Assembly (NCBI GenBank): GCA_017432425.1
Contig: JAFRJE010000029.1
Span: forward strand, 1-36,674
Length of the DNA: 36,674 nucleotides
Source: Candidatus Saccharimonadota bacterium
Lineage (GTDB): Bacteria > Patescibacteriota > Saccharimonadia > Saccharimonadales > Saccharimonadaceae
Direction: 5' to 3'
Position numbers and translations under genes: made by a program. The notes under the pieces were generated by a model. It worked only from the letters and a program-made list of their open reading frames with translations, was not told where the DNA came from and ran no database searches. Position 1 is the first letter of the stretch; the number at the start of each line of letters is the position of its first letter. Of the stretch, positions 1,875-36,011 are shown piece by piece.

Positions 1875-3499
1875 TTCTTTACTACCTTTCTCGTCACATC
1901 AAATTTTTCCATATATTTCCCAATCATCAACCTCGTCTGGGAATAATACGCCGCCAAACTCGTATAAACTAACGCAATCACCGGCATCAAAATCCACTGC
2001 AACACCATCATCACTCCCTTAACTTTCTTATATTTTTTCGGCCTTTCCGGCAGCAACCTCAAACTCGTCAAAATTGTTACAAAAAGCCCAATCACCGCAA
2101 TCGTCTGTACGACCGAAACTACCCTCGGTAGGTTAAAAACCGCCATTCCTCTCGCCGTCAAATTCATGATCGCCGGTACCCACCCCCCAAACGCCACAAT
2201 CGGCGACATCATCGCCAGCGTAACGTGCCCGTCTAGAAGCCGTATAAACTTCGGAACTAACTCAACCAACGGAACCCCTCTGCGTTTTTTCTTATCAAAC
2301 AACCTTACCCCAACATACGCCACGTCGCTCGCTCCGTAGTCCCACCTCCTCAACTGAATAAATTGCGCCTTTAGCGTCTCAAGTAGCGTCTCCCCAATTA
2401 CCGCGTCTTGATAAATCGGAACTCGAATCGGTATAACCTCATAGTCCCCCCTAAAATAAAACAAACTTCTCCAATATTGATGCCCATCCTCGACAATCGT
2501 CCGTTTACTCCAATACCCCATTCCCTCTAATGCCTCTAGCGGTTGCGAATGACTCGCAAAATTTCGTAAATTATGCGGCCTCATTGTCGAAATCACGTTA
2601 TAAAACGAATTTGACATCGCAATTACCCTCATCGGCGCCGGCGCGTCCCAAATATTATTCGTAAACAAAGAAATCGGCTGATAACTAACTTTTTGTCGAT
2701 TTTCTCTCGTTATAAACTCATATAAAACATAATCTAAATACCCCTTGCTAACTCTGTTATCCGAATCAAGCGACGTTACAATTACGTTTTCCGATTTAAT
2801 TCCCTTTTTCCTAACATATTCGCTTAATTTTTCCGCCGCAAAACAAAGATTCGGGCCTTTCCCCTTTATTTCCCCCTTAACCCCGTCTGGATGCTCCGCA
2901 ATAATCAGTTTAGAAAAAGTTTCTTTATATTTCTTCTTAATCTCTTCCGCGTTTTTTCTCATTTCTTCCCCGCCACGCGCCTCATATCCAAACACAAAAA
3001 TAATCCGCTCGTTCGGAAAATCCGCTTCGCGAATCGCCTCAATACTCGGAATTAACGTCTCTAGCCCCTCGTTATACGCAACCATAATTATCGCGTGATA
3101 AACTTTTTCCGGATTTGGATATTTTCCCTTTTCCGCAACGCTAATTCTCTTTAAATTTTTTATATGCTCCTCAATTCCATACGCTTCCGACCTCGTTCCG
3201 CGTACCCGCTCGTACGCTTCGTGTGGCGTCGCCAAATCCTCAACTCGCTTTCGCCAATCAACTCGCTCCGCTTTTTTCATCGTCTCAAACCCCTGCCACG
3301 TCCTAAACGCGACCGCAATCGCCTTAACCAAAGTCGCAGAAATAATCAACAATAAATAAATCGCCGCTAGAATCGGCGTAAAATATGATAACAAAAACAA
3401 CAAAATTACCGCAAAATAGCTCAACGCCCCCGGCAAAATCTCAAAAAAACGATATAGCCCAGTTCGCTTCCCCAGCGGCAACTCAAGCTCTTTTTTCAT
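1871..3499 (-). CDS. membrane GT2 family glycosyltransferase
   Basis: A 542-residue processive-type glycosyltransferase family 2 protein. Two membrane segments lie at about residues 25-65. The GT-A catalytic domain follows, with the entry motif IIMVAYNEG near 140, the metal-binding DxD as SLDSDN near 245, the acceptor motif VEDGHQYWR near 335 and the QxxRW-like QLRRWDYG near 390. Three or four more membrane helices make up the C-terminus. Such proteins transfer sugars from nucleotide donors to lipid or polysaccharide at the membrane; the substrate cannot be told from sequence. It is the middle gene of a run: the membrane protein upstream ends 5 bases before this ATG, and polA overlaps its stop. 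Confidence 0.9.
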   Translation of the reverse strand: MKKELELPLGKRTGLYRFFEILPGALSYFAVILLFLLSYFTPILAAIYLLLIISATLVKAIAVAFRTWQGFETMKKAERVDWRKRVEDLATPHEAYERVRGTRSEAYGIEEHIKNLKRISVAEKGKYPNPEKVYHAIIMVAYNEGLETLIPSIEAIREADFPNERIIFVFGYEARGGEEMRKNAEEIKKKYKETFSKLIIAEHPDGVKGEIKGKGPNLCFAAEKLSEYVRKKGIKSENVIVTSLDSDNRVSKGYLDYVLYEFITRENRQKVSYQPISLFTNNIWDAPAPMRVIAMSNSFYNVISTMRPHNLRNFASHSQPLEALEGMGYWSKRTIVEDGHQYWRSLFYFRGDYEVIPIRVPIYQDAVIGETLLETLKAQFIQLRRWDYGASDVAYVGVRLFDKKKRRGVPLVELVPKFIRLLDGHVTLAMMSPIVAFGGWVPAIMNLTARGMAVFNLPRVVSVVQTIAVIGLFVTILTSLRLLPERPKKYKKVKGVMMVLQWILMPVIALVYTSLAAYYSQTRLMIGKYMEKFDVTRKVVKK

Positions 3500-3504
3500 T
3501 TTTT

Positions 3505-3909
3505 CTACCCTTCCCCAAGCAACCGTATCAAAACCACAAACGCCCCCAGAACCAACATCGCCGACAACAAAACAAACATTCTCGCGACCCCTTTTCCGCG
3601 TCGCTCATAAATCTGTACCGAAATTAAACTATGTAATAGCCCAAACACCACCGCCGCGACCGCAAACGCCATCAAATCAATCATTCCCCCCGAACGGTAC
3701 CCGCCCGAACTCCAAAGGCTAGAAATTTCCCCGCCCGCAAATTTCCCAATGTCCGAATACCCAACATAAGCCATACTCCCGACCCCCAAGGCTTTCACAA
3801 AAGCGAAGATAAACAGCGCCAACGCCAGCAAAAACAACAAAACCAAAAGCCCCAAAAACCCCCTGTCTTCCTGATAAATCTTCTTAAAGCTTTCGCCTAG
3901 ATTCTTCAT
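3505..3909 (-). CDS. small multi-pass membrane protein, unknown
   Basis: A 134-residue protein starting MKNLGESFKK. An upstream TTG start at 3939 is possible, but a TATAAT box lies between it and this ATG, so the inner start is favoured. Hydrophobic segments lie at about residues 20-40, 75-95 and 110-130, and a Gly/Ser-rich linker (SSGGYRSGG) sits between the first two. No family is recognised. It heads the run with the glycosyltransferase and polA and may work with the glycosyltransferase, but that is only a position argument. Confidence 0.75.
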   Translation of the reverse strand: MKNLGESFKKIYQEDRGFLGLLVLLFLLALALFIFAFVKALGVGSMAYVGYSDIGKFAGGEISSLWSSGGYRSGGMIDLMAFAVAAVVFGLLHSLISVQIYERRGKGVARMFVLLSAMLVLGAFVVLIRLLGEG

Positions 3910-10283: not shown

Positions 10284-12014
10284 CTAAAGCGCCATGATTT
10301 TCCTTAACAATATCTTTACTTCCTCTTCGTCCCCTTTTTCTTCCGCAACCGCTAATTCCGCTTGTAATTTTAATTTTTCATGTTTATTTAATTCATTTTT
10401 ATATCTTTTTGTCAATTCTTCCCCCTCTTTCTCTAGCGCCGCTTTTTCCCAACCCCCATATTCTTTCTCAAAAATCATTTCTAGTTCTCCGAGTCGAACC
10501 TCATCCTCCGGAATTTCTAACTCAACCTTAGTTTTAACCCCCCCAAAAATCATAATCGCGAGCAAATTATTCTCTAATTTTTCTAATTTCTCGCCCTTAA
10601 CTTCCGTTTTTGCTTTTTTAAACCTCTTTCGCGTCCCCTCCTCAATTTTCTTCTCTAAATCTTCCCCTTTCTCTCTTAAGTCTTCTCGACTTACTCCGAG
10701 CCTCTTCGCGACAATCTCCTCGTAGTGCGCTCGCTCGATCTTATCTTTAACATATTCCAAAAGCCCCAACGCCAACGTCGAATACTCTTTCTTCCCAAAC
10801 CCCGTCGAAAGGTCGACTTTCTCCTCATATTTATCAAGCAACCATTCTACCGCCGGTTTTCTCTCCTCGACCGCTTTCTGCCACAATTCCGCCCCTCGCT
10901 GAATTAACTCGTCCGGGTCTTTCGCTCCCTGATAATCGGAAATAACCGTCAACTCAATCCCCAAATCCCCCGCCATTCTAATCGCTCGCTCCGCCGCTCG
11001 AACCCCCGCCTCGTCCCCGTCGTATGCTAACCGTATATCTCCCGTTAATCTCGACAAAATTTTCAAATGATTTTCCGTCATCGCTGTCCCGCTCGTCGCA
11101 ACCGCCTCCTTAACCCCCGCTTGATGCGAAGAAATAACGTCCATATTCCCCTCAACAATCACCACAAACCCACTCCGCCGAATCGCCTCTTTTGCCTGAT
11201 ATAGCCCAAAAATAAACCTACTCTTATTAAAGAGTATAGTGTCAGGAGTATTAAGATACTTAGGACCAAAGGATTGTTGAGAATTAGTAAGATGCGATGA
11301 AGCAGGAGTAGCGGAACGAGACGTATTTGACATACGTTGAGTGAGCAACGCATCTGCTGAAGAAGCAGATTGCTGATTCTCAACAATCCTCGCCGTATAA
11401 CCGATAATCTTTCCGTCTGTATCAATGAACGGAACCATCATCCTCCCTCGAAACATATCTCCCCCAAACCGATTCAAAAGCCCCGCCGTTTCTAATTCTT
11501 TCTCCGTATATCCCCGCGACTTTAAAAACGTCTTTAACGCTTTTCCGCTCGCCGGCGCATACCCAATCCGAAACTCCTCGACCGTCTTCCGGTTCAAATT
11601 TCGTTTATAAAAAACATACTCACAAACTTTTTTCGATTTTGAAAGCGCAAACTGATAATATTTTGTCGCTAGCTCTAACGCCTCTCTCGCCCGAACTTTC
11701 TTCTTCGTCACTTCCGCGTCCCCGCCTCGATATTTAGCGATATCAACCCCCGCCTGCGCCGCCAACTTCTCTAACGCTTCCTTAAAACTAATCCCCTCAA
11801 CTTCCATTATGAACGTAAAAATATCTCCGCCCTTGTTCGCAGAAAAATCGTGCCAAATCCCTTTCTCTGGCGAAACCATAAAGCTCGGCGTCTTATCAAC
11901 CCCCCACGGCGACCTCCCCTTAAGCGTCCTCCCCGCTCGTTTTAATTCAACATATTGAGAAATCACGTCCTCAATCGCCAACCTCGCCTTAATCTCCTCC
12001 TTCGCGTCATTCAT
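10284..12014 (-). CDS. dnaG: DNA primase with insertion element, zinc site lost
   Basis: A 576-residue primase that makes RNA primers at the fork. The N-terminal zinc-ribbon fold is recognisable (GRSPWGVDKTPSFMVSPEKGIWHDFSANKGG), but all the usual ligands are replaced: CPFH reads SPWG and CFGC reads DFSA. The RNA polymerase core has DGKIIGYTARIVEN and then, after an inserted stretch of about 38 residues, FGPKYLNTPDTILFNKSRF. The TOPRIM acids follow in VVIVEGNMDVIS and RLAYDGDEAG. The C-terminus is helical and charged, a plausible DnaB-binding domain. The insert (11270-11390) is a hairpin element in frame. Transcription probably starts at the ATG. Confidence 0.95.
   Translation of the reverse strand: MNDAKEEIKARLAIEDVISQYVELKRAGRTLKGRSPWGVDKTPSFMVSPEKGIWHDFSANKGGDIFTFIMEVEGISFKEALEKLAAQAGVDIAKYRGGDAEVTKKKVRAREALELATKYYQFALSKSKKVCEYVFYKRNLNRKTVEEFRIGYAPASGKALKTFLKSRGYTEKELETAGLLNRFGGDMFRGRMMVPFIDTDGKIIGYTARIVENQQSASSADALLTQRMSNTSRSATPASSHLTNSQQSFGPKYLNTPDTILFNKSRFIFGLYQAKEAIRRSGFVVIVEGNMDVISSHQAGVKEAVATSGTAMTENHLKILSRLTGDIRLAYDGDEAGVRAAERAIRMAGDLGIELTVISDYQGAKDPDELIQRGAELWQKAVEERKPAVEWLLDKYEEKVDLSTGFGKKEYSTLALGLLEYVKDKIERAHYEEIVAKRLGVSREDLREKGEDLEKKIEEGTRKRFKKAKTEVKGEKLEKLENNLLAIMIFGGVKTKVELEIPEDEVRLGELEMIFEKEYGGWEKAALEKEGEELTKRYKNELNKHEKLKLQAELAVAEEKGDEEEVKILLRKIMAL
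11270..11390. repeat. in-frame hairpin element, family A copy 1 (dnaG)
   Basis: The core contains the hairpin ACGTAT-TTGAC-ATACGT and the shared stretches AGCAGGAGTAGCGGAACGAG and GAGTGAGCAACGCATCTGCTG. It is bracketed by perfect 15-base inverted arms (11270-11284 and 11376-11390) made of dnaG coding sequence. On the dnaG strand it encodes a Ser/Ala/Thr-rich stretch (SADALLTQRMSNTSRSATP), placed between the conserved ARIVEN and GPKYLN segments. Confidence 0.9.
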
Positions 12015-13997: not shown

Positions 13998-16075
13998 TAC
14001 ATCTCCTCCGGAACCATAATTCCTAAAATATTTAGTCCATGTTTCATAATTTTAGTGAACACTCTAACAAATTTTTTACGCTCGTCCTCAAACTCACTCC
14101 CCACAACCGGACAATTTTCATAAAAACGACTAAATTCCTGCGCCAATTCAAACAAATAATTCGCAACCAAATGCGGCGCCTTTTCTCGAACCGCCTCCCT
14201 TAAAACCCCCGGATATTGAACAATTTTTTTACTCAATTTCCGCTCATAGACATTAAGATTATAAAAAGTTTTAGTAGCGATGCTATTCGAGGAAACGGGA
14301 GTAGCGGAGCGAGACGTATTTGACATACGTTGAGCGAGCAACGCATCCGTTGACGACGAAGAGCACGCTAATAAAACTTTTTTAGCTCTAACAACTGAAT
14401 ACAACAAGTACGGTCCCGAATTCCCCGTCAAACTAACCGACTCTTCCGCATCAAACACAATATTCCCCCCAATCCGATACTTTAAGAAATAATACTTAAT
14501 CGCTCCCAAGGCAATTTTATTAAAATCATCTGGCGTCTCAAAATCGTCAGTAGCGAGCTTATTCAATGAAGCAGGAGTAGCGGAACGAGACGTATTTGGC
14601 ATACGTCGAGTGAGCAACGCATCTGCTGAAGCCGAAGAAGCCGCTAATGTCGATTTTACTAACTCTAACACCTCAACCGCTTTGACAAAATTCCCCTTCC
14701 TACTCGACATCTTCTCATTCCCCGGCAACCTCACATTCCCATGCGTAATATGTGTCGTTCTCTCAACCAACTCCGGCGCATATTGCTCAACCGACTTTAA
14801 AACAACTTTCATATAATCGATGATATCGTTCCCCGTTATAACAATCGACTCGTCAAACTTATAGTCCGCCCACTTCGTAAACAACAACCCAACGTCTTTC
14901 GCTTCGTATGTTGGCAACCCCTCCTTATTAATAAACACGCGCGTATGTAGCCCAAACTTCTCCCCCGGAAAAACTATCGCCCCCTCCGACTCTGAATAAA
15001 TTCCTTTTTCTTTCTGTTCTAAAATTTTATTCAACCCCGTCTTCATTACAACCGACTCTGGATAAAATTTATCAAACTTAACCCCAATTTCCTTATAAAA
15101 ATCTTTAAAATACTGATAACTTAAAGCTCTCCCCCGCCAATAAATCTCCGCAACTCGTTTCTCTTCCTCATCCAACCCCTCCTCGTTCCCCTCCCCAAGT
15201 TCCGCAATCTTATAAATTATTTTATTAAGCTGAACAATTTTTTTCCTCGCCTCCTCGTCTTCCTCATACGCTCTCGTCCCCTCAACGTATGCCCGCGCTA
15301 TATCGTCTATAGTCAACTCGCTAGCCGAGTCCAAATGTTCAATAAGGGGATGTCCGGAGGTTACGACCGAGGATGAAGGCGCCGAAGCCCCGCAACGGCG
15401 GGCGCGAAGGACGCCGGTCCCCGTTTGGACATTGGACGAGGGCTTCGTAAGAATACTATATATGGTCTTCGCAACGTGCAACCCCACATCTCCCCCAAAA
15501 TTAACTCGAATTACTCGCCCTCCTGCTTCCTCAACCAACCTCGAAATCGCATCTCCAACAATCGACGTATATAAATGTCCAACGTGTAAAACTTTAAACG
15601 GATTCGGGTCGGAAAATTCGCAAATCACCGTCTTCCCTTGATAATCGCTCGGCAAAATCTTCTCCCTAAACGCCTCCTCGCTCTCTAAAACTCCCTGAAT
15701 AAACTCTCGATAAAACGCGTCTCCGAACGTAAAGTTCAAAAACCCTGGCCCCGCAATCTCAACTTTCGTTCCCTGAAGCTCCGGAAGTTTATCTACCGCA
15801 GTTTTTAGAAACTCGCGCCTTAAAACTTCCGCGATTTCTCTCGGATTCGTTTTTTCCAAAGCAATCCCCTCGAATTTCTCCCCCTCGCCGAGTTTCTTAT
15901 TAATCTCCCCCGCCAGTTTCATCGCCACGTTCGTCGCAAATTCTGGTTTAGAAATCGCCTCTAGGTCGCCCTCCCCCTCGCGCGAAAGCTCCGGCGCCGG
16001 CGTAACCAAAACGTCCGCCTCGAGCCTAAAAACCCTTAAAATAATCTTCTCTAATTCTTTTTTAATCAAATCCAT
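13997..16075 (-). CDS. argS: arginyl-tRNA synthetase carrying three insertion elements
   Basis: A 692-residue class I synthetase, about 120 longer than usual. The HIGH motif is LHVGH in VLHVGHLYTSIVGDA near residue 165, and the KMSKS equivalent is KMSSRKGNF near 475. The N-terminal Add1-like domain and C-terminal DALR anticodon domain (LVANYLFELAQEFSRFYE) are present. The excess length is explained by three in-frame inserts: family C (15330-15436) in the catalytic domain, and two family A copies (14540-14657 and 14263-14382) after the KMSKS loop and in the anticodon domain. Without them the protein is of normal size. The -10 box at 16087-16092 gives at most a very short leader. Confidence 0.96.
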   Translation of the reverse strand: MDLIKKELEKIILRVFRLEADVLVTPAPELSREGEGDLEAISKPEFATNVAMKLAGEINKKLGEGEKFEGIALEKTNPREIAEVLRREFLKTAVDKLPELQGTKVEIAGPGFLNFTFGDAFYREFIQGVLESEEAFREKILPSDYQGKTVICEFSDPNPFKVLHVGHLYTSIVGDAISRLVEEAGGRVIRVNFGGDVGLHVAKTIYSILTKPSSNVQTGTGVLRARRCGASAPSSSVVTSGHPLIEHLDSASELTIDDIARAYVEGTRAYEEDEEARKKIVQLNKIIYKIAELGEGNEEGLDEEEKRVAEIYWRGRALSYQYFKDFYKEIGVKFDKFYPESVVMKTGLNKILEQKEKGIYSESEGAIVFPGEKFGLHTRVFINKEGLPTYEAKDVGLLFTKWADYKFDESIVITGNDIIDYMKVVLKSVEQYAPELVERTTHITHGNVRLPGNEKMSSRKGNFVKAVEVLELVKSTLAASSASADALLTRRMPNTSRSATPASLNKLATDDFETPDDFNKIALGAIKYYFLKYRIGGNIVFDAEESVSLTGNSGPYLLYSVVRAKKVLLACSSSSTDALLAQRMSNTSRSATPVSSNSIATKTFYNLNVYERKLSKKIVQYPGVLREAVREKAPHLVANYLFELAQEFSRFYENCPVVGSEFEDERKKFVRVFTKIMKHGLNILGIMVPEEM
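14263..14382. repeat. in-frame hairpin element, family A copy 2 (argS)
   Basis: The family A core with ACGTAT-TTGAC-ATACGT lies inside 17-base inverted arms (14263-14279 and 14366-14382) with one mismatch. The outer arm bases are argS sequence and unlike the arms of the dnaG copy. It encodes SSTDALLAQRMSNTSRSATP on the argS strand. Confidence 0.9.
14540..14657. repeat. in-frame hairpin element, family A copy 3 (argS)
   Basis: The family A core, here with ACGTAT-TTGGC-ATACGT, lies inside 16-base inverted arms (14540-14555 and 14642-14657) with two mismatches. It encodes SADALLTRRMPNTSRSATP on the argS strand. Confidence 0.9.
15330..15436. repeat. in-frame hairpin element, family C copy 1 (argS)
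   Basis: A 72-base core, starting TGTCCGGAGG on the + strand and containing CCGAGGATG and GAAGCCCCG, is alignable end to end with the valS core at about 28440. Arms 15330-15349 and 15419-15436 pair (TCCAA-TGTTCAA with TTGGACA-TTGGA) with one G-U pair. The core reads + here although argS is on -, so it is translated in the opposite sense from the valS copy. Confidence 0.85.
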
Positions 16076-18299: not shown

Positions 18300-20063
18300 A
18301 TGCAAAATAAACAGTCAAAACAAACAAAATATATCTTCGTTACTGGTGGCGTTCTTTCTGGCGTCGGAAAAGGGATAACTGCCGCCTCGATTGGCGCAAT
18401 CTTAAAGGCTAAGGGCTTTAAGGTAACTATGCAAAAGTGCGACCCCTATTTAAACGTTGACGCTGGTCTCTTAAATCCCGTTGAACACGGCGAATGTTTC
18501 GTAACGAAAGACGGCGTCGAAACTGACCTCGACCTCGGTCATTACGAACGCTTCCTCGATTTTGAAACTAATAAATACTCAATTACTCTCTCTGGCGCAA
18601 TTTTTAAAGAACTAATCGACAAAGAACGCTCCGGCGGCTTCCGCGGCAAAACCGTCCAACTCGTCCCTCATTTTACCAACCTCGTCCAAGAAAAAATTGC
18701 CCGCGCCTCCGAAAACTCCGATATCCATATCGTCGAAATCGGCGGTACAATCGGCGACTACGAGGGTCTTTCTTTCGTCGAGGCAATTCGTCTCTTTGCG
18801 AACCGCGTCGGACGTAAAAATTGCCTCTATGTTTCCGTCGTCTATGTCCCCTGGATCAATACCTCTAAAGAATTTAAGACCAAACCCGCCCAAAACGCCC
18901 TAAAAGACCTCCGTGGCTTCGGAATTATCCCCGATGTCGTCTGTACTCGAACCGAAAAACCCGCCCCGAAAGAAATCCAAGAAAAAATCGCCGCTTTCGC
19001 CGGCATCAACCCCTCCGGCGTCGTCAACCTCCCCGATATTAAATCCGTCTACGACGTCCCCTTTAACGTCTTAAAATCTGGCGTCCTCTCGATTCTAAAT
19101 GATTTCGTCGACGACGACTCCGAACCCGATATGTCGCGCTGGCTCGCTTTCTCGAAAAAGCGCAATAAAACTTATCAAAAAACCGTCCGCGTCGGCCTCG
19201 TCGCGAAATATGTCGGAAACGAAGATACTTATATCTGCGTAACCGAAGCCCTGAAAGCCGCCGCCGCTTGGGAAAACGTCAACCTCGACCTCGTCTGGAT
19301 TAATGCCGAAAAATTAGAAGAGATTATGAAAGATTTTTCAAACGATTCCGCAGATTCCGACAGTAAAAATTACAGCAGTCACAAAAGTGAATGCCTGGAC
19401 AGTACCAGTGCTGAACTTTTGACTGACTGTTGTAATTTTAACGATTGCGAATCGAGGACCAGCGAGAAAAAACTTTCTAATCTTTTCAAAAATATGAGCG
19501 GCATCCTCGTCCCCGGCGGCTTCGGTCCCCGCGGCGTCGAGGGCAAAATCGCCGCCGCCTCTTATTGTCTCAACAACAACCTCCCCTACCTCGGTCTCTG
19601 CCTCGGTCTCCAGGTCGCCTGTATCGCCGCCGCCCGAAAAGCCGGCGTCGCGACCGCGAACTCCGAGGAATTTGGCGCCTCCGAAAAATCCAAAAATAAC
19701 GTAATCTATATTATGGAAGACCAAAAAGGCAAGGAGCAAACCGGCGCCTCTATGCGCCTCGGCGACTACCCTGCCGTTCTTAAAAAAGGTTCAAAAGTCG
19801 CTAAAATCTACGGAAAAACCTCTATCTCCGAACGCCATCGCCACCGTTACGAAGTCAACCTCGCTTTCGCTGAAAAAATCGAACAGGGCGGTCTCGAAAT
19901 CTCCGGAACCTCTCCCGACGGAAAACTCGTCGAATTTGTCGAAGCTAAAAACAACGACTTCTTCGTCGCAACCCAAGCCCACCCCGAGTTCAAATCTCGC
20001 CCTCTCGCCCCCTCTCCCCTCTTTACCGCTTTTATTAAAGCAATGAAGAAACGTCTCAACTAA
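18300..20063 (+). CDS. pyrG: CTP synthase with insertion element
   Basis: A 587-residue CTP synthase that aminates UTP to CTP using glutamine. The synthetase domain opens with IFVTGGVLSGVGKGITAASI and includes KCDPYLNVDAGLLNPVEHGE and IVEIGGTIGDYEG. The glutaminase domain has GILVPGGFGPRG, the nucleophile loop LGLCLGLQVACIAA and, at the end, ATQAHPEF. The family is usually about 540 long; the extra residues form an insert between the two domains (DSADSDSKNYSS to CESRTSEKK, element 19328-19477). The insert sits in the interdomain linker just before GILVPGGFG, where it may be tolerated. A bidirectional terminator follows. Confidence 0.96.
   Translation: MQNKQSKQTKYIFVTGGVLSGVGKGITAASIGAILKAKGFKVTMQKCDPYLNVDAGLLNPVEHGECFVTKDGVETDLDLGHYERFLDFETNKYSITLSGAIFKELIDKERSGGFRGKTVQLVPHFTNLVQEKIARASENSDIHIVEIGGTIGDYEGLSFVEAIRLFANRVGRKNCLYVSVVYVPWINTSKEFKTKPAQNALKDLRGFGIIPDVVCTRTEKPAPKEIQEKIAAFAGINPSGVVNLPDIKSVYDVPFNVLKSGVLSILNDFVDDDSEPDMSRWLAFSKKRNKTYQKTVRVGLVAKYVGNEDTYICVTEALKAAAAWENVNLDLVWINAEKLEEIMKDFSNDSADSDSKNYSSHKSECLDSTSAELLTDCCNFNDCESRTSEKKLSNLFKNMSGILVPGGFGPRGVEGKIAAASYCLNNNLPYLGLCLGLQVACIAAARKAGVATANSEEFGASEKSKNNVIYIMEDQKGKEQTGASMRLGDYPAVLKKGSKVAKIYGKTSISERHRHRYEVNLAFAEKIEQGGLEISGTSPDGKLVEFVEAKNNDFFVATQAHPEFKSRPLAPSPLFTAFIKAMKKRLN
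19328..19477. repeat. in-frame hairpin element, family B copy 1 (pyrG)
   Basis: The 130-base core (19343-19472) differs from the tsaD copy at a single base. It folds into one long hairpin: AAAATTACAGCAGTCA...AAAAGT pairs with ACTTTTGACTGACTGTTGTAATTTT, around CTGG-ACAGTA-CCAG. The outer arms (19328-19339 and 19464-19477) are weaker than in the tsaD copy. It encodes a Ser/Asp/Cys-rich segment. Confidence 0.95.
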
Positions 20064-22073: not shown

Positions 22074-23543
22074 ATGAATATCCTGGCTATTGAATCTTCT
22101 TGCGACGAAACCGCGGCGGCTAGTCTCTCCGCCCCCTCTCTTTCTAAGCTCAAAACTTCCCCCGCTTTCGACCCAAACAACCCTCTCCGCTCCGCCTCTT
22201 ATAAACTCCTCTCAAACGTCGTCGTCTCCCAAATCGACATCTTCAAAGCCTACGGCGGCGTTATTCCCGAAGTCGCCGCCCGTTCCCACCTCGAGGCGAT
22301 TCTCCCTGTCATTCATCAAGCCTTCTCAAACGCCGGCTTCATTGAAAAATCCCCTAAAGCCGCTTTTTCAATGAATAAAGCCTCGTTCAATGAAACGCCC
22401 TCCGAACGCGAAGATTGGTCAAAAATCGACGCTATCGCCGTAACGAATACTCCCGGTCTCCTCGGCTCTCTTCTCGTCGGAACCCTAACCGCCCGCACTC
22501 TCGCCATTCTCCACGACAAACCCCTCTACCCCATTCACCACCTCAAGTCTCATATCTATTCAGCTATACTAGGAAACGAAAATGTTTTTTCGAGCGATTC
22601 CGCAGATTCCGACAGTAAAAATTACAGCAGTCACAAAAGTGAATGCCTGGACAGTACCAGTGCTGAACTTTTGACTGACTGTTGTAATTTTAACGATCGC
22701 GAATCGAGGACCAGCGAGAAAAAATATTTTTGTTTCCCAAACATTGCCCTCGTTATCTCCGGCGGCCACACTCAACTCATCTACATGCCTTCCGAAAACT
22801 CTTTCGAAATAATCGGAACAACTCTCGACGACGCCGTCGGCGAAGCCTTTGACAAAATCGCCAAAATCCTTGGTCTTCCCTACCCCGGCGGGCCCTCAAT
22901 TTCTAAAGCCGCCCTCTCTGGCAACCCCGAAAAATACTCTTTCCCACACCCTAACGTCCCCGACCTCAACTTCTCTTTCTCCGGCCTAAAAACCGCCGTC
23001 CTCCGCACAATCCAAAAAGAACTCGGCGTCCCTCTTTCTTACCCGTCCCATGATATAAAAAACCTCCTCTCCGAAACCCAAATCGCCGACTTCGCCGCCA
23101 GTTTCCAGAGAACAGCAATCGACATCTTAATCGAAAAGTTAAATCTCGCCCTAAAAAAATATCACGACGTAAATACCGTCATCATCGCCGGCGGCGTCTC
23201 CGCAAACGAAGAATTGCGAAAAAGAATATCAGAAAAGGTTTCTTGTTCGGGGGTTAGTCCGAATCCGCAGACGCCAGCAGTCAGAACTACAGCGATTACT
23301 AAGCGAGTTCGAGGTAACGTCGTCGACGAGCGCGAGACTAATCGTTGTGGTTCTGACGATTGCGCGGCGAGGACCAGGACGAAACCCGAACGAGAAGCCA
23401 TTCACATTCTTTTTCCCGAAAAATCCTTTTCCGGCGACAACGCCGCCATGGTCGCCCTCGCCGCCTATTCCGAACTTCTCTCAAACATCCCCCCAACCGA
23501 CCCCTATTCTCTCCAAATCCTCCCCCGTAGCAAAATCAACTAA
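22074..23543 (+). CDS. tsaD: tRNA threonylcarbamoyl transferase TsaD with insertions
   Basis: A 489-residue Kae1/TsaD that transfers threonylcarbamoyl to A37 of ANN-decoding tRNAs, with TsaB and TsaE as partners. Diagnostic parts are AIESSCDETAAA at the N-terminus, GGVIPEVAARSH, the metal-binding HHLKSHIYS, LVISGGHTQL, and near the end GGVSANEELRKR and FSGDNAAMVA. The family is usually about 340 long. The excess consists of a family B element after HIYSAILG (22572-22737), a family D element near the C-terminus between RKRISEKV and HILFPEKSF (23237-23399), a short perfect palindrome (22338-22375), and a stretch near residues 18-40 of unclear origin. All remain in frame. Confidence 0.95.
   Translation: MNILAIESSCDETAAASLSAPSLSKLKTSPAFDPNNPLRSASYKLLSNVVVSQIDIFKAYGGVIPEVAARSHLEAILPVIHQAFSNAGFIEKSPKAAFSMNKASFNETPSEREDWSKIDAIAVTNTPGLLGSLLVGTLTARTLAILHDKPLYPIHHLKSHIYSAILGNENVFSSDSADSDSKNYSSHKSECLDSTSAELLTDCCNFNDRESRTSEKKYFCFPNIALVISGGHTQLIYMPSENSFEIIGTTLDDAVGEAFDKIAKILGLPYPGGPSISKAALSGNPEKYSFPHPNVPDLNFSFSGLKTAVLRTIQKELGVPLSYPSHDIKNLLSETQIADFAASFQRTAIDILIEKLNLALKKYHDVNTVIIAGGVSANEELRKRISEKVSCSGVSPNPQTPAVRTTAITKRVRGNVVDERETNRCGSDDCAARTRTKPEREAIHILFPEKSFSGDNAAMVALAAYSELLSNIPPTDPYSLQILPRSKIN
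22338..22375. repeat. short perfect palindrome in tsaD
   Basis: TTCATTGAAAAA and TTTTTCAATGAA, 12-base perfect arms around a 14-base loop. TTCAATGAA recurs at about 22388. It encodes FIEKSPKAAFSMN in a part of TsaD with no counterpart in the usual family. Confidence 0.8.
22572..22737. repeat. in-frame hairpin element, family B copy 2 (tsaD)
   Basis: Core 22595-22724 matches the pyrG copy at 129 of 130 positions. Outer arms 22572-22591 and 22718-22737 pair at all 20 positions, two of them G-U in the tsaD mRNA sense. The arms are unrelated to those in pyrG. Confidence 0.95.
23237..23399. repeat. in-frame hairpin element, family D (tsaD)
   Basis: Arms 23237-23251 and 23385-23399 pair over 15 positions with two U-G pairs. 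Inside, 23280-23298 pairs with 23339-23357 over 19 positions with two more G-U pairs. The ends resemble family B (CCGCAGA near the 5' side, GCGAGGACCAG near the 3' side), so B and D look like branches of one family. Confidence 0.88.
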
Positions 23544-26635: not shown

Positions 26636-29317
26636 ATGAAATTCACATCTTCTTATGAACCTAGCGACTTCGAAAGCGACGTCTACGCCGCCTGGGAATC
26701 CGCCGGTCTTTTTAAACCGACCCTCCCCCAGCCGTCCGGTATTGAACAAAATACCCCCTCGACCTACTCAATCGTCATGCCTCCCCCGAACGCCAACGGC
26801 AATCTCCATATCGGACATGGTTTAACAATCGCAATCGAAGACTCTCTAATCCGCTACTACCGCCTAAAGGGAAAATCCGCCTGGTATATCCCCGGCGCCG
26901 ACCACGCCGGCTTCGAAACCTGGGTTGTCTATGAACGCGCCCTCGAAAAAGTCGGTCATACTCGCTTCGAATACTCTCGCGACGAACTTTATGCCCAAGT
27001 CTGGAACTTCGTCGAAGAACAGCGGGGGAACATGGAACTCCAAGTCCGCTCCCTCGGCGCTAGCTGCTCCTGGGACGATTTAACCTTTACCCTCGACGAA
27101 AACGTCGTTAAACGCGTCTACTCGACTTTTGAAAAAATGTGGAACGACGGAATGGTCTATCGCGGCGAAAAACTCGTTAATTATTGCCCAAAACACCAAA
27201 CCGCTTTCGCTGATATCGAAGTCGAACAAGTCGAAGAAAAAGGTTTTCTCTATGATATACGCTACTCCAACGAAATCGTCGTCTCAACAACCCGCCCCGA
27301 AACCCTCTTCGGAGATACCGCCGTCGCCGTCAACCCCGAAGATGACCGCTATAAATCCCTAATCGGAAAAACCGTTAAACTCCCCCTTTCTGGTCGAGAA
27401 ATCCCGATTATCGCCGACGAACACGCCGACCCCGCCTACGGAACCGGCGCCGTAAAAATTACCCCTGCGCACGATTTCGACGATTTCGAAGTCGGCGAAC
27501 GCCATGACCTCCCCCGCCTCCGCGTTATCGACGATTCCGGAAAACTCTGTTCCGAATACGTCCCCGAAGTTTTCCGCGGCTTAACCGTCGAAGAGGGAAG
27601 AAAAGCCGTCTTAAAAGCCCTAAAAGCCGAAGGCTCTCTCTTAAATACGAAAAAAATCGTCCATACCGTCCCCCATTGTTACAAATGCGGAGCCGTAATC
27701 GAACCGACCCTTAAGGAACAATGGTTTGTCGATACCGAACGCCTCGCGAAAGCCGCAATCTCTCGTCTTGAAAATAACGAAATTAAATTCTATCCAAAAA
27801 ACAAACAAAAAGTCCTAATCGACTATCTAAAAGGTCTAAAAGATTGGAACATCTCCCGCCAAATCCCCTGGGGAATCGCCATCCCGATGTTCAAGAAAGT
27901 CGGCGACGCGCCGGACTATCCCGACTGGATCTTCGATACTCGCGTAAATTTGAAAGAAATCGAATACGGCGGCGTAAAATATGTCCGCGACGAAGATACT
28001 TTCGATACTTGGTTCTCTAGCTCCCATTGGCCGCTCGTCTGTACTAACTGGGAAGAGGGTCGCGAAAACCCCTATTATCCGCTAAATGTCATGGAAACCG
28101 GCGCCGACATTCTCTTCGCCTGGGTCGCCCGCATGATTATGATGGGCATCTATGTAACCGGCGAAATTCCTTTCCGCGAAGTCTATCTCCATGGTCTCGT
28201 GCTCGACGAACACGGCAAAAAAATGTCGAAGTCAAAAGGGAACGTAATCAACCCCGTCGAACTCGTCGCGAAATACGGCTCCGACGCTTTCCGCCTCGGC
28301 ATTCTCCGCGGCCGCTCCGCCGGCCTAAACCAAGCGTTCTCCGAAGAAAGCGTCAAATCCGGCCGCAACCTCTGTAATAAACTCTGGAACATCTCAAGAT
28401 TTATTGAAGTGGCGGCTCAAATGGTTTCTTCTCGGGAACATCCGGAGGCAACGGCCGAGGACGAGACGCCGGAGCCCCGTGACGACGGGAGCGCAGGACG
28501 TCGTTTCCCGAAAGGAACCTTTGAGCGCAAGCCACAATACGAAACCCTTAACATGTCCGAAGACTGGATTTGCCGCGAAATAACAGAGGCGAAACGCCGA
28601 ATCGAAAAGGGAATGAAAAACTACCGCTTCTCCGAAGTCGTCGAAGAACTCTATTCTTTAATCTGGGACAAATACGCCGACTGGTTCCTCGAAGCCGAAA
28701 AAATCTACAAAAACCTCCCTCTCTTAAAAACAACTCTCGAATCTATCCTTACCCTCCTCCACCCCTTTGCTCCGTTCGTGACCGAAACCATCTACCAAAG
28801 CCTCTCCTGGACCGACGGCTTCCTAATCAACCAAAAATGGCCCTCTGACCTCGAATTTGACCCAATCAGTGCCGAAAACTTTGAAAGGTTGGTCCCAGTC
28901 ATAACCGAAACCAGACGCGTCCTCGCGGGGCTTCCTGGCGCGTTTAAGACCAAAAAATACGGGCTTCTCTATGGCGACGACTCCCTCGTTAGCGATAACT
29001 CCCTCCTCGTCATGAAACTCGCCCGCGTCCCCTCAATTTCCTCGACCTCTGGAACTCCGCGCGGTATTCGCCTCGCCGTCCCAAACCACGAAGTCTATCT
29101 CGACGTCCCCGCCGAAGTTATTAAGGGCTATAAAGACAGTTTAACCGAGCGCATTCTCGCCGTCGGTCGCGAACTCAACTCTCTCGAAAAACGTCTCGAA
29201 AACCCAAACTACGTCAAAAAAGCCCCCGAAAAACTCGTTAAAGAAACTAAAGAGGGAATTAAAGAGAAAAAAGTCCTAATCGAACGCTTGAGAAAAGAGC
29301 TCGAAGTAATCGCTTAA
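26636..29317 (+). CDS. valS: valyl-tRNA synthetase with insertion element
   Basis: An 893-residue class I synthetase. HIGH is in PPPNANGNLHIGHGL near residue 50 and KMSKS in GKKMSKSKGN near 530. The CP1 editing domain contains STTRPETLFGDTAVAVNP and GTGAVKITPAHDFDDFEVG. CHKCG-type cysteines are represented by HCYKCG. The anticodon domain (CNKLWNISRFIE onwards) is interrupted by an in-frame hairpin element encoding about 40 residues (28409-28535). The C-terminal ValS-type coiled coil (LNSLEKRLENPNYVKKAP) is intact. It starts without a leader or ribosome site. Confidence 0.97.
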   Translation: MKFTSSYEPSDFESDVYAAWESAGLFKPTLPQPSGIEQNTPSTYSIVMPPPNANGNLHIGHGLTIAIEDSLIRYYRLKGKSAWYIPGADHAGFETWVVYERALEKVGHTRFEYSRDELYAQVWNFVEEQRGNMELQVRSLGASCSWDDLTFTLDENVVKRVYSTFEKMWNDGMVYRGEKLVNYCPKHQTAFADIEVEQVEEKGFLYDIRYSNEIVVSTTRPETLFGDTAVAVNPEDDRYKSLIGKTVKLPLSGREIPIIADEHADPAYGTGAVKITPAHDFDDFEVGERHDLPRLRVIDDSGKLCSEYVPEVFRGLTVEEGRKAVLKALKAEGSLLNTKKIVHTVPHCYKCGAVIEPTLKEQWFVDTERLAKAAISRLENNEIKFYPKNKQKVLIDYLKGLKDWNISRQIPWGIAIPMFKKVGDAPDYPDWIFDTRVNLKEIEYGGVKYVRDEDTFDTWFSSSHWPLVCTNWEEGRENPYYPLNVMETGADILFAWVARMIMMGIYVTGEIPFREVYLHGLVLDEHGKKMSKSKGNVINPVELVAKYGSDAFRLGILRGRSAGLNQAFSEESVKSGRNLCNKLWNISRFIEVAAQMVSSREHPEATAEDETPEPRDDGSAGRRFPKGTFERKPQYETLNMSEDWICREITEAKRRIEKGMKNYRFSEVVEELYSLIWDKYADWFLEAEKIYKNLPLLKTTLESILTLLHPFAPFVTETIYQSLSWTDGFLINQKWPSDLEFDPISAENFERLVPVITETRRVLAGLPGAFKTKKYGLLYGDDSLVSDNSLLVMKLARVPSISSTSGTPRGIRLAVPNHEVYLDVPAEVIKGYKDSLTERILAVGRELNSLEKRLENPNYVKKAPEKLVKETKEGIKEKKVLIERLRKELEVIA
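28409..28535. repeat. in-frame hairpin element, family C copy 2 (valS)
   Basis: The 72-base core beginning CATCCGGAGG aligns with the argS copy. The arms 28409-28436 and 28507-28535 pair in blocks (GTGGC/GCCAC, CTCAAA/TTTGAG, GGTT/GAACC with a U-G pair, CGGG/CCCG). It is in the sense orientation here. Confidence 0.88.
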
Positions 29318-34613: not shown

Positions 34614-36011
34614 CTAATACTTATAGATTTTTCGAAGCGTTTTCACAAAATCGTTCCACCTTTCGGGAGTCATTTTTCTAGCAGTCCTCTGCTCAAACAA
34701 CTGTTCAATAGCATCTTTGTCTTTTTTGTCACTCACGGCATATTTTTGTGCAAATTCTATTTTATTATCTTTCGTAGTCCTAACTCCAGCTTCAATCGCA
34801 AAAACATTACCTTGCTTAAAAAGTAAAAGGGGCGCAAAAGCAGAATCTTTAAGCTGATAAATAATTGCGGACTGAACTTTAGAATCCGACCTATCGCTAT
34901 AAATAAACGGCTCAGACAAGGCAAATCTTCCATCAACGCTAAGATATCTCGGACCCAACTCAATATCTCCTAGTTCCTCCCCAAATTTAACCTCGGTATT
35001 CATTCGCCCAAACCTTGAAGAAGCGTAATCCTCAAAAAGAGAAAGCTTTTCCGACTCTTTCGGCTTCTCCGGCTCGGCTTTCGGCTCAACCTCTGGTTCG
35101 GCTTTCGGCTCGGCTTTCGACTCCGGTTTAGCTTCGGATTCCACCCGCCTCGGCTTCTCGGGTCTTTCCGCCCTCTCTGTTCTTTCAGCCCTTTCGGCTT
35201 CAACTTCCTCTACCTCCTCCCCTGGCGCCGGATTCTCAACCTCCATTTTCCCCTCTAGAAACGCCTCCGTATAAACTTTCGCATATCTGTACTGATTCCC
35301 GTAAACAATCCGCCCCAATTTCTCCGCTTTCTTCCTAAACGCTTCAACCTGTTCTTTTGATTCCTCTCCTTGAACCAAAAAATTACAATGTCGACAAAAA
35401 TCAACCGCCGTCGGATAGGTCGCGACCAGCTCTTTCAACGCATCTATCCCCATCTCGCGCTTATCTTTATCTGTATATTCCTCCCCCTTATCTACCTTAA
35501 TCTTATCTTTAGTTTTCCACTCTTCCGTAAAACTATATAACTGTTCTAAAACTTTATTATCCGCGTTTTCACCCTTTTTCCCGACGATTTTATCATAAAC
35601 CGCCTCGACTCCCTCAGTCTTTACCGGCGTCGCAATTTTTCGAATTACTTTCCTCCCCTCTCTATAAGCCGCATCTTCATCGAGGTCATCCAACCACATT
35701 CTTACCTCGTCCAAATCCCCCTCGCTCACATCATAATCTCCTTTAACCGCAAGTTTTCTCGCATCCTCCGTAACAATCGCTACCGCCAACTTCCTCGCCG
35801 TTCGCCAATAATCCGCGGCGTATTTTTCCTCTTTCATCAACTTTTCCAGCTCAAAAGGCTTTTCCTCCAAAGAAGAAAACTCCTCCCGTAACCTCTCAAC
35901 CGGTTCAGCTTCGTCAATTACTACGCGATTAACCTTACGCCCAACCTCTCCCTTTGAACTTTCAGTTTCCGCGCCTTTTATTACCTCAGGATTATTCATA
36001 CTACTCTCCAT
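34614..36011 (-). CDS. acidic low-complexity protein, unknown
   Basis: A 465-residue charged protein. Residues about 1-270 are helical and Glu/Lys-rich. A linker at about 270-325 consists of short repeats (ERAER, EPKAEPEVEPKAEPEKP). The C-terminal 130 residues look like a compact folded domain (LGPRYLSVDGRFALSEPF, FAPLLLFKQGNVFAIEAG). No signal peptide or membrane segment was seen. The family is not recognised. A Met five codons in is an alternative start. Confidence 0.75.
   Translation of the reverse strand: MESSMNNPEVIKGAETESSKGEVGRKVNRVVIDEAEPVERLREEFSSLEEKPFELEKLMKEEKYAADYWRTARKLAVAIVTEDARKLAVKGDYDVSEGDLDEVRMWLDDLDEDAAYREGRKVIRKIATPVKTEGVEAVYDKIVGKKGENADNKVLEQLYSFTEEWKTKDKIKVDKGEEYTDKDKREMGIDALKELVATYPTAVDFCRHCNFLVQGEESKEQVEAFRKKAEKLGRIVYGNQYRYAKVYTEAFLEGKMEVENPAPGEEVEEVEAERAERTERAERPEKPRRVESEAKPESKAEPKAEPEVEPKAEPEKPKESEKLSLFEDYASSRFGRMNTEVKFGEELGDIELGPRYLSVDGRFALSEPFIYSDRSDSKVQSAIIYQLKDSAFAPLLLFKQGNVFAIEAGVRTTKDNKIEFAQKYAVSDKKDKDAIEQLFEQRTARKMTPERWNDFVKTLRKIYKY

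Follow-up and report, generated by a model that had tools for sequence, protein, structure and literature searches.

Mobile palindromes in essential genes of Saccharibacteria carry host-specific stems that were probably copied from the native flank

Small mobile palindromes have inserted into essential genes of Saccharibacteria, and the stems that surround them were probably made when DNA synthesis snapped back and copied the native flank as its reverse complement. The arms of these stems pair beyond chance, one of the two arms is native to the host, the core fold covaries, the inserts lie in frame, and one of the families (family 3) occupies host genes in both orientations. From these observations we infer that template switching does the copying, either during insertion or soon afterwards, and that the protein includes the insert. 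In the course of events that we propose, small palindromic DNA elements (~75-150 nt) of Saccharimonadales would move into permissive loops of essential proteins or to positions behind stop codons, and an element inside a gene would be read through by translation as extra residues. At or after settling, the growing strand would fold back over the hairpin, copy the flank that it had just passed and return to the chromosome, so that a conserved core becomes enclosed by a stem of roughly 12-25 host-specific pairs. Template switching is known both to create and to repair stems (PMC8794818).

The window, that is, the whole 36,674-nucleotide stretch of DNA analysed here, belongs to a Saccharibacteria genome of 711,736 bases (~700 kb), and the relatives that share its core are Candidatus Saccharibacteria of the goat, roe deer and sheep gut. 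Three mobile-palindrome families (1, 2 and 3) are present within the window. Insert sites lie in frame in the essential genes tsaD (two), pyrG, argS (three), dnaG and valS, and others lie directly behind stop codons. The features on which the following account draws are:

22572-22737, + strand: tsaD insert B with both arms, family 1, recovered by folding and by inverted-repeat search, in frame inside tsaD (22074-23543)
22572-22583, + strand: 5' arm of tsaD-B, GGAAACGAAAAT, site-specific and read as native from the comparison of LGNEN with LGNERVP of the empty relative L025
22726-22737, + strand: 3' arm of tsaD-B, ATTTTTGTTTCC, site-specific, complement of the 5' arm, matching the empty site only at its end (TTTCC, FP codons)
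about 19334-19472, + strand: a second family-1 unit, within pyrG (18300-20063), 97-98% identical to tsaD-B with different outer arms
23225-23405, + strand: tsaD insert D, family-1-like, with 15-pair arms including two U-G pairs
11286-11370, + strand: family-2 core in dnaG (gene at 10284-12014, - strand), given on its better-folding strand
11376-11390, - strand: native dnaG arm, AGGATTGTTGAGAAT in gene sense, codons R-I-V-E-N, assigned by empty-site comparison
11270-11284, - strand: new dnaG arm, ATTCTCAACAATCCT in gene sense, missing in 11 of 11 empty relatives
14263-14382, - strand: argS insert A1, family 2, core at 14279-14363, 17-nt arms from inverted-repeat search
14535-14655, - strand: argS insert A2, family 2, core at 14555-14639
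15348-15421, + strand: insert C of argS, family 3, whose functional strand opposes that of the gene, the valS copy being oriented the other way
28436-28508, + strand: insert in valS, family 3, with gene and functional strand the same

Elsewhere in the window, 12-base tandem repeats at 35070-35140 encode an A/E/P/K-rich stretch of the open reading frame at 34614-36011 (- strand).

At tsaD-B, both searches recovered the uninterrupted run of 20 outer pairs, including two G-U, that had been read from the sequence in a preliminary description, and the arms of tsaD copy D likewise paired at 15 of 15 positions, two of them as U-G; the inverted-repeat search gave 15 of 15 pairs for dnaG and 16 of 17 for argS A1. 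The tsaD-B stem is composite. About eight of its 20 pairs, the inner ones (TTTTTTC/GAGAAAAAA), are part of a mobile unit common to the pyrG copy, and the outer twelve or so are site-specific. This second copy of the tsaD-B core, in the gene for CTP synthase, occupies a site missing from the original list. The reading frame of tsaD runs through insert B without a stop, and the family-1 fold is better on the sense than on the antisense strand. Among relatives, many have an empty tsaD loop, and about thirteen carry long inserts there whose arms are unique. Three of the inserts in tsaD (L014, L022 and L029) have perfect arms, but their resemblance to the host is limited to the outer few bases; these may be nested insertions, or their arms may have been brought from elsewhere. 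Two other genomes (G022, locus L028; G017, locus L035) carry short, perfect, core-less hairpins in the same loop, possibly remnants after core loss.

Whether each copy has arms of its own that pair with one another was evaluated on family 2, the family whose core is common to argS and dnaG. A search over 174 genomes of the genus gathered 72 distinct copies, 68 of them with full flanks, and for these 68 the complementarity of each left flank was scored against each right flank. Flanks scored a mean of 28.9 with their own partner against 13.7 (s.d. 3.6) when crossed, and the own partner was the best among all partners in 57 of the 68 copies, which come from mostly metagenome assemblies and include sites occupied in several genomes, where copies are possibly inherited and hence non-independent. 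In 10,000 permutations of the flanks the highest mean was 16.1. The arms of family 2 therefore differ among copies and pair inside each copy far above chance, as the preliminary description had held. Arm identity was no lower around more divergent cores (Spearman 0.11, p = 0.39). Related copies behind tuf (L081 against L083 and L088) have two arm mismatches in common and differ by a two-base change that is compensated in both arms, a change that fits template switching because compensated changes are predicted by that process (PMC8794818).

Empty sites in relatives identify the native arm. In all 11 relatives with an empty dnaG site, GYTAR or GFTAR is followed by a short stretch (e.g. VLDKSE or ILDKGE) and PKYLNT, and there is no insert; in the genome of the window dnaG reads GYTARIVEN, then the core, then NSQQSFGPKYLNT. 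The 5' arm AGGATTGTTGAGAAT corresponds to native RIVEN and the 3' arm ATTCTCAACAATCCT is its perfect complement over 15 of 15 positions; no counterpart of this 3' arm occurs in the 11 relatives, in which the best chance complement scores 7.25 of 15. At ileS, the 5' arm consists of the conserved SAFVLF codons and the 3' arm lies within extra residues that are missing at 12 short empty sites. At tuf, the 5' arm contains the last codons and the stop codon, and its complement is present only in the three occupied genomes, where the nearby complement score is 11.75-13.5 (28 unoccupied sequences: median 6.25, maximum 9.75). The corresponding scores for polA are at most 6.8 at 22 sites without family 2 and 8.5-12.0 at five occupied sites, and argS gives the same picture as polA in weaker form. 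Since empty dnaG, ileS, polA and tuf sites lack the second arm, the usual pattern appears to be one native flank and a new reverse-complement copy on the other side. The pyrG site is an exception, with resemblance to native sequence on both sides and native complementarity between EEL and ELL, and polA has a natural QAD mini-palindrome.

In family 2 the native arm lies on the 5' side of the gene wherever the two arms can be distinguished, and tsaD-B behaves likewise despite its opposite functional strand. A polarity fixed relative to the element was considered and is doubtful, as tsaD-B shares the polarity of family 2 on the opposite functional strand and some other tsaD inserts look reversed. 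It is a tentative proposal, to which we give somewhat less than even weight, that an inverted rather than a direct target duplication is the signature of integration itself, the strand joined to the element snapping back over the hairpin and copying 12-25 nt of one flank before it returns to the chromosome. If true, inverted target duplication would be a way of integrating that has not been described before, shared by members of a whole order of ultra-small bacteria.

The family-2 core forms a long hairpin whose internal loops are conserved and, on one strand, purine-rich. Of 66 copies, 64 fold better as antisense than as sense (consensus energies -31.4 antisense and -19.8 sense), and both sides have changed in 15 of the 23 pairs of the core. 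The alignment opposes adjacent G and A in the internal loops of the antisense strand, which suggests tandem G.A pairs. Searches against Rfam matched only tRNAs over the window, with no match to a self-splicing intron or other known RNA family, and gave no match at E <= 1 in three related loci; the cores are mobile hairpins of small size rather than introns. Because the strand preference differs by family, and because family 3 sits in its host genes in either orientation and keeps the frame both ways, these features point to mobile hairpins at the DNA level whose strand choice is unrelated to mRNA.

Long reading frames contain 40 family-2 copies, all of them in sense and 37 in one frame; a further copy, at L110, with only a 169-aa antisense frame, was counted as non-coding. 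Coding copies keep the favoured frame open in 38 of 39 cases and non-coding copies in 22 of 27, where "coding" is defined by an open frame and interrupted genes may have been missed, and the other frames are open less often. As the favoured frame is open in non-coding copies too, the bias mainly reflects which frame of the element lacks stops. Most likely, judging from the reading frames, the inserts are translated as extra residues. Most non-coding copies of the genus lie 0-22 nt behind a same-strand stop codon, which falls within the left arm. In L081, L083 and L088 the element lies immediately behind the tuf stop codon, and in at least two of them the native terminator has been pushed downstream. 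Copies outside the genus are of mixed orientation.

Four origins of the stems other than copying of the flank at or near insertion have to be weighed. Elements might home to pre-existing hairpins such as terminators and quasi-palindromes and insert in the loop, the arms being the old stem. The many family-2 copies directly behind stop codons, where terminators are common, are in keeping with such homing, as are the native complementarity at pyrG and the mini-palindrome in polA. We regard it as unlikely: empty dnaG, ileS, polA, argS and tuf sites have the native arm without a partner, and the native tuf terminator of empty genomes lies further downstream. Insertion into pre-existing hairpins, one of four options raised in the preliminary description, accordingly fails at dnaG, ileS, polA and tuf, where the empty-site comparison that it called for finds the native flank and misses the complement, pyrG retaining some native complementarity. 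The arms could instead be ordinary terminal inverted repeats of the element that co-diverged after insertion, and an inner stem is indeed common to copies in families 1 and 3 (two family-3 copies, in argS and ileS, have long inner arms in common). For family 2 this reading is contradicted, and for the inner stem it could still hold; as a general account it is very improbable, given outer arms that are wholly different around cores 97-98% identical and, at dnaG, ileS and tuf, a left arm made up of conserved codons of the host gene. No fixed terminal inverted repeat was found in family 2, the flanks beyond its core varying by copy and pairing only within each copy. The arms might also form long after insertion, if the hairpin stalled replication and quasi-palindrome correction slowly perfected a weak native complementarity. 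That stems can be both made and preserved by template switching is established (PMC8794818), pyrG and polA offer some complementarity to start from, and arm quality is undiminished at greater core divergence, yet dnaG, with no native seed beyond chance in 11 relatives, pairs at 15 of 15 positions; we rather doubt this slow route while granting it a real chance. The interpretation in the preliminary description is supported in part: of its four options, creation of the arm at insertion fits best insofar as the complement is missing at empty sites; palindrome repair at a later time may account for the same observations.

The fourth alternative places the cause in the transcript, with arms made or kept by selection for an mRNA stem that enables splicing out or ribosome bypass. 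Its attraction is that the stems are strong in sense RNA and that the family-2 copies of the genus are all in sense within genes and otherwise nearly all behind stops. Selection on an mRNA stem would lead one to expect G-U to be tolerated more than A-C, and the counts are opposite: read on the sense strand, mismatches in family-2 arms comprise 31 G-U and 53 A-C (18 and 35 in coding copies, 14 and 18 in non-coding copies), so that A-C is as frequent or commoner. The earlier argument that G-U closure points to RNA folding is not borne out by these counts, nor by a core that folds better antisense, and folding of sense-strand RNA was on both grounds rejected as the cause of the arms. Excision from RNA or ribosome bypass, also suggested at the outset, is unneeded and disfavoured by the open, continuous host frame and by the in-frame residence of family 3 in both orientations. 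The open, length-conserving frame would argue against a bypass element in particular, and Rfam returned no ribozyme or intron. We therefore judge selection for an mRNA stem to be very unlikely.

No transposase has been linked to the elements. A Y1 transposase was found neither in this genome nor in ten relatives of the genus, and in other families a core lies near only 1 of 25 Y1 loci; Y1/RAYT was rejected as mobiliser on this absence and on the lack of core enrichment at Y1 genes elsewhere. A reverse transcriptase match is present in 17 of 22 genus genomes (14 of 16 core carriers and 3 of 6 non-carriers). Target-primed copying by such an enzyme would give the observed polarity, but its role as mobiliser is not supported: nearly all of the reverse transcriptases inspected resemble those of diversity-generating retroelements, and no family-2 core lies beside them. 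Enzymes with the motifs YGRYVDDF and IGNLSSQLLSNIYL are encoded at L252 (positions 2639-3802; contig 28 of G000) and at L253-L264. A viral origin was set aside as well, the core pattern having no exact match in viral contigs.

In genomes sampled across the order, the family-2 core is recognised by a covariance model in 117 of 295 genomes, belonging to 80 of 143 genera, with up to 15 per genome among the matches listed. For 53 copies outside the genus the own-flank mean is 16.0 against 11.5 for crossed flanks (permutation maximum 13.2), and in one quarter of them the site-specific arms score beyond the 99th percentile for crossed flanks. One ileS site (L071, G102) retains its two arms and, of the core, the 3' end alone, as if it were the scar of a deleted core; arms with a partial core fit core loss from an occupied ileS site. 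In L315, L316, L322, L333 and other loci from other families of the order, the core is preceded by a second small hairpin (CCGGC-nnn-GCCGG, followed by GCACCG and then GCTTYTGGCG), which suggests a longer, two-hairpin element outside the genus. Two or more element copies lie within ~0.4-2.5 kb of one another at L106 and at L125/L086 (G088, G095).

These elements add a distant lineage to those in which selfish palindromes inhabit essential proteins, and they offer hundreds of natural pairs of empty and occupied sites from which to read how a hairpin element builds a stem from host sequence. The tolerance of 30-60 extra residues by aminoacyl-tRNA synthetases, TsaD, PyrG, DnaG and PolA becomes testable. 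They also call for caution, as strong stems with compensated changes need not imply RNA function: template switching in DNA can make them.

Our literature search found no prior description of such elements in Saccharibacteria. REP/BIME sequences with their RAYT (Y1) transposases are likewise small, dispersed, many-copy hairpins; Y1, however, is missing from this genome and from ten others of the genus, and REPs are chiefly extragenic, unlike the in-gene elements described here. MITEs leave a short direct repeat of the target on both sides; none was apparent on inspection of the dnaG and ileS sites, and the flank copy of the Saccharibacteria elements is inverted. Mobile translational bypass elements of yeast mitochondria are palindromic inserts in genes according to the account in PMC6649704; they are transcribed and untranslated, whereas the Saccharibacteria inserts keep an open frame. 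In template-switch hairpins (Monttinen and Loytynoja 2022) and in the coding palindromes of Nematomorpha mitochondria, stems arise as reverse-complement local copies and are kept paired (PMC8794818, PMC6649704); these have no mobile core, whereas in Saccharibacteria the copy flanks a mobile hairpin. Of the known systems, the Rickettsia palindromic elements (RPE) come closest, together with the related protein-coding palindromes of Wolbachia; both are described as mobile, ~105-150 bp long, present as several families per genome, and inserted in frame in conserved genes, where they are tolerated as extra residues (PMC2229807, PMC10969869). The Saccharibacteria elements share with RPE their size, palindromy, several families and in-frame residence in conserved genes. 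They belong to a different phylum and, as far as the descriptions allow comparison, are set apart by a conserved core with internal loops that are purine-rich on one strand and by their ends: RPE are described with a terminal inverted repeat (about 12 bp), whereas the terminal stem of the Saccharibacteria elements is host-specific and probably comes from flank sequence.
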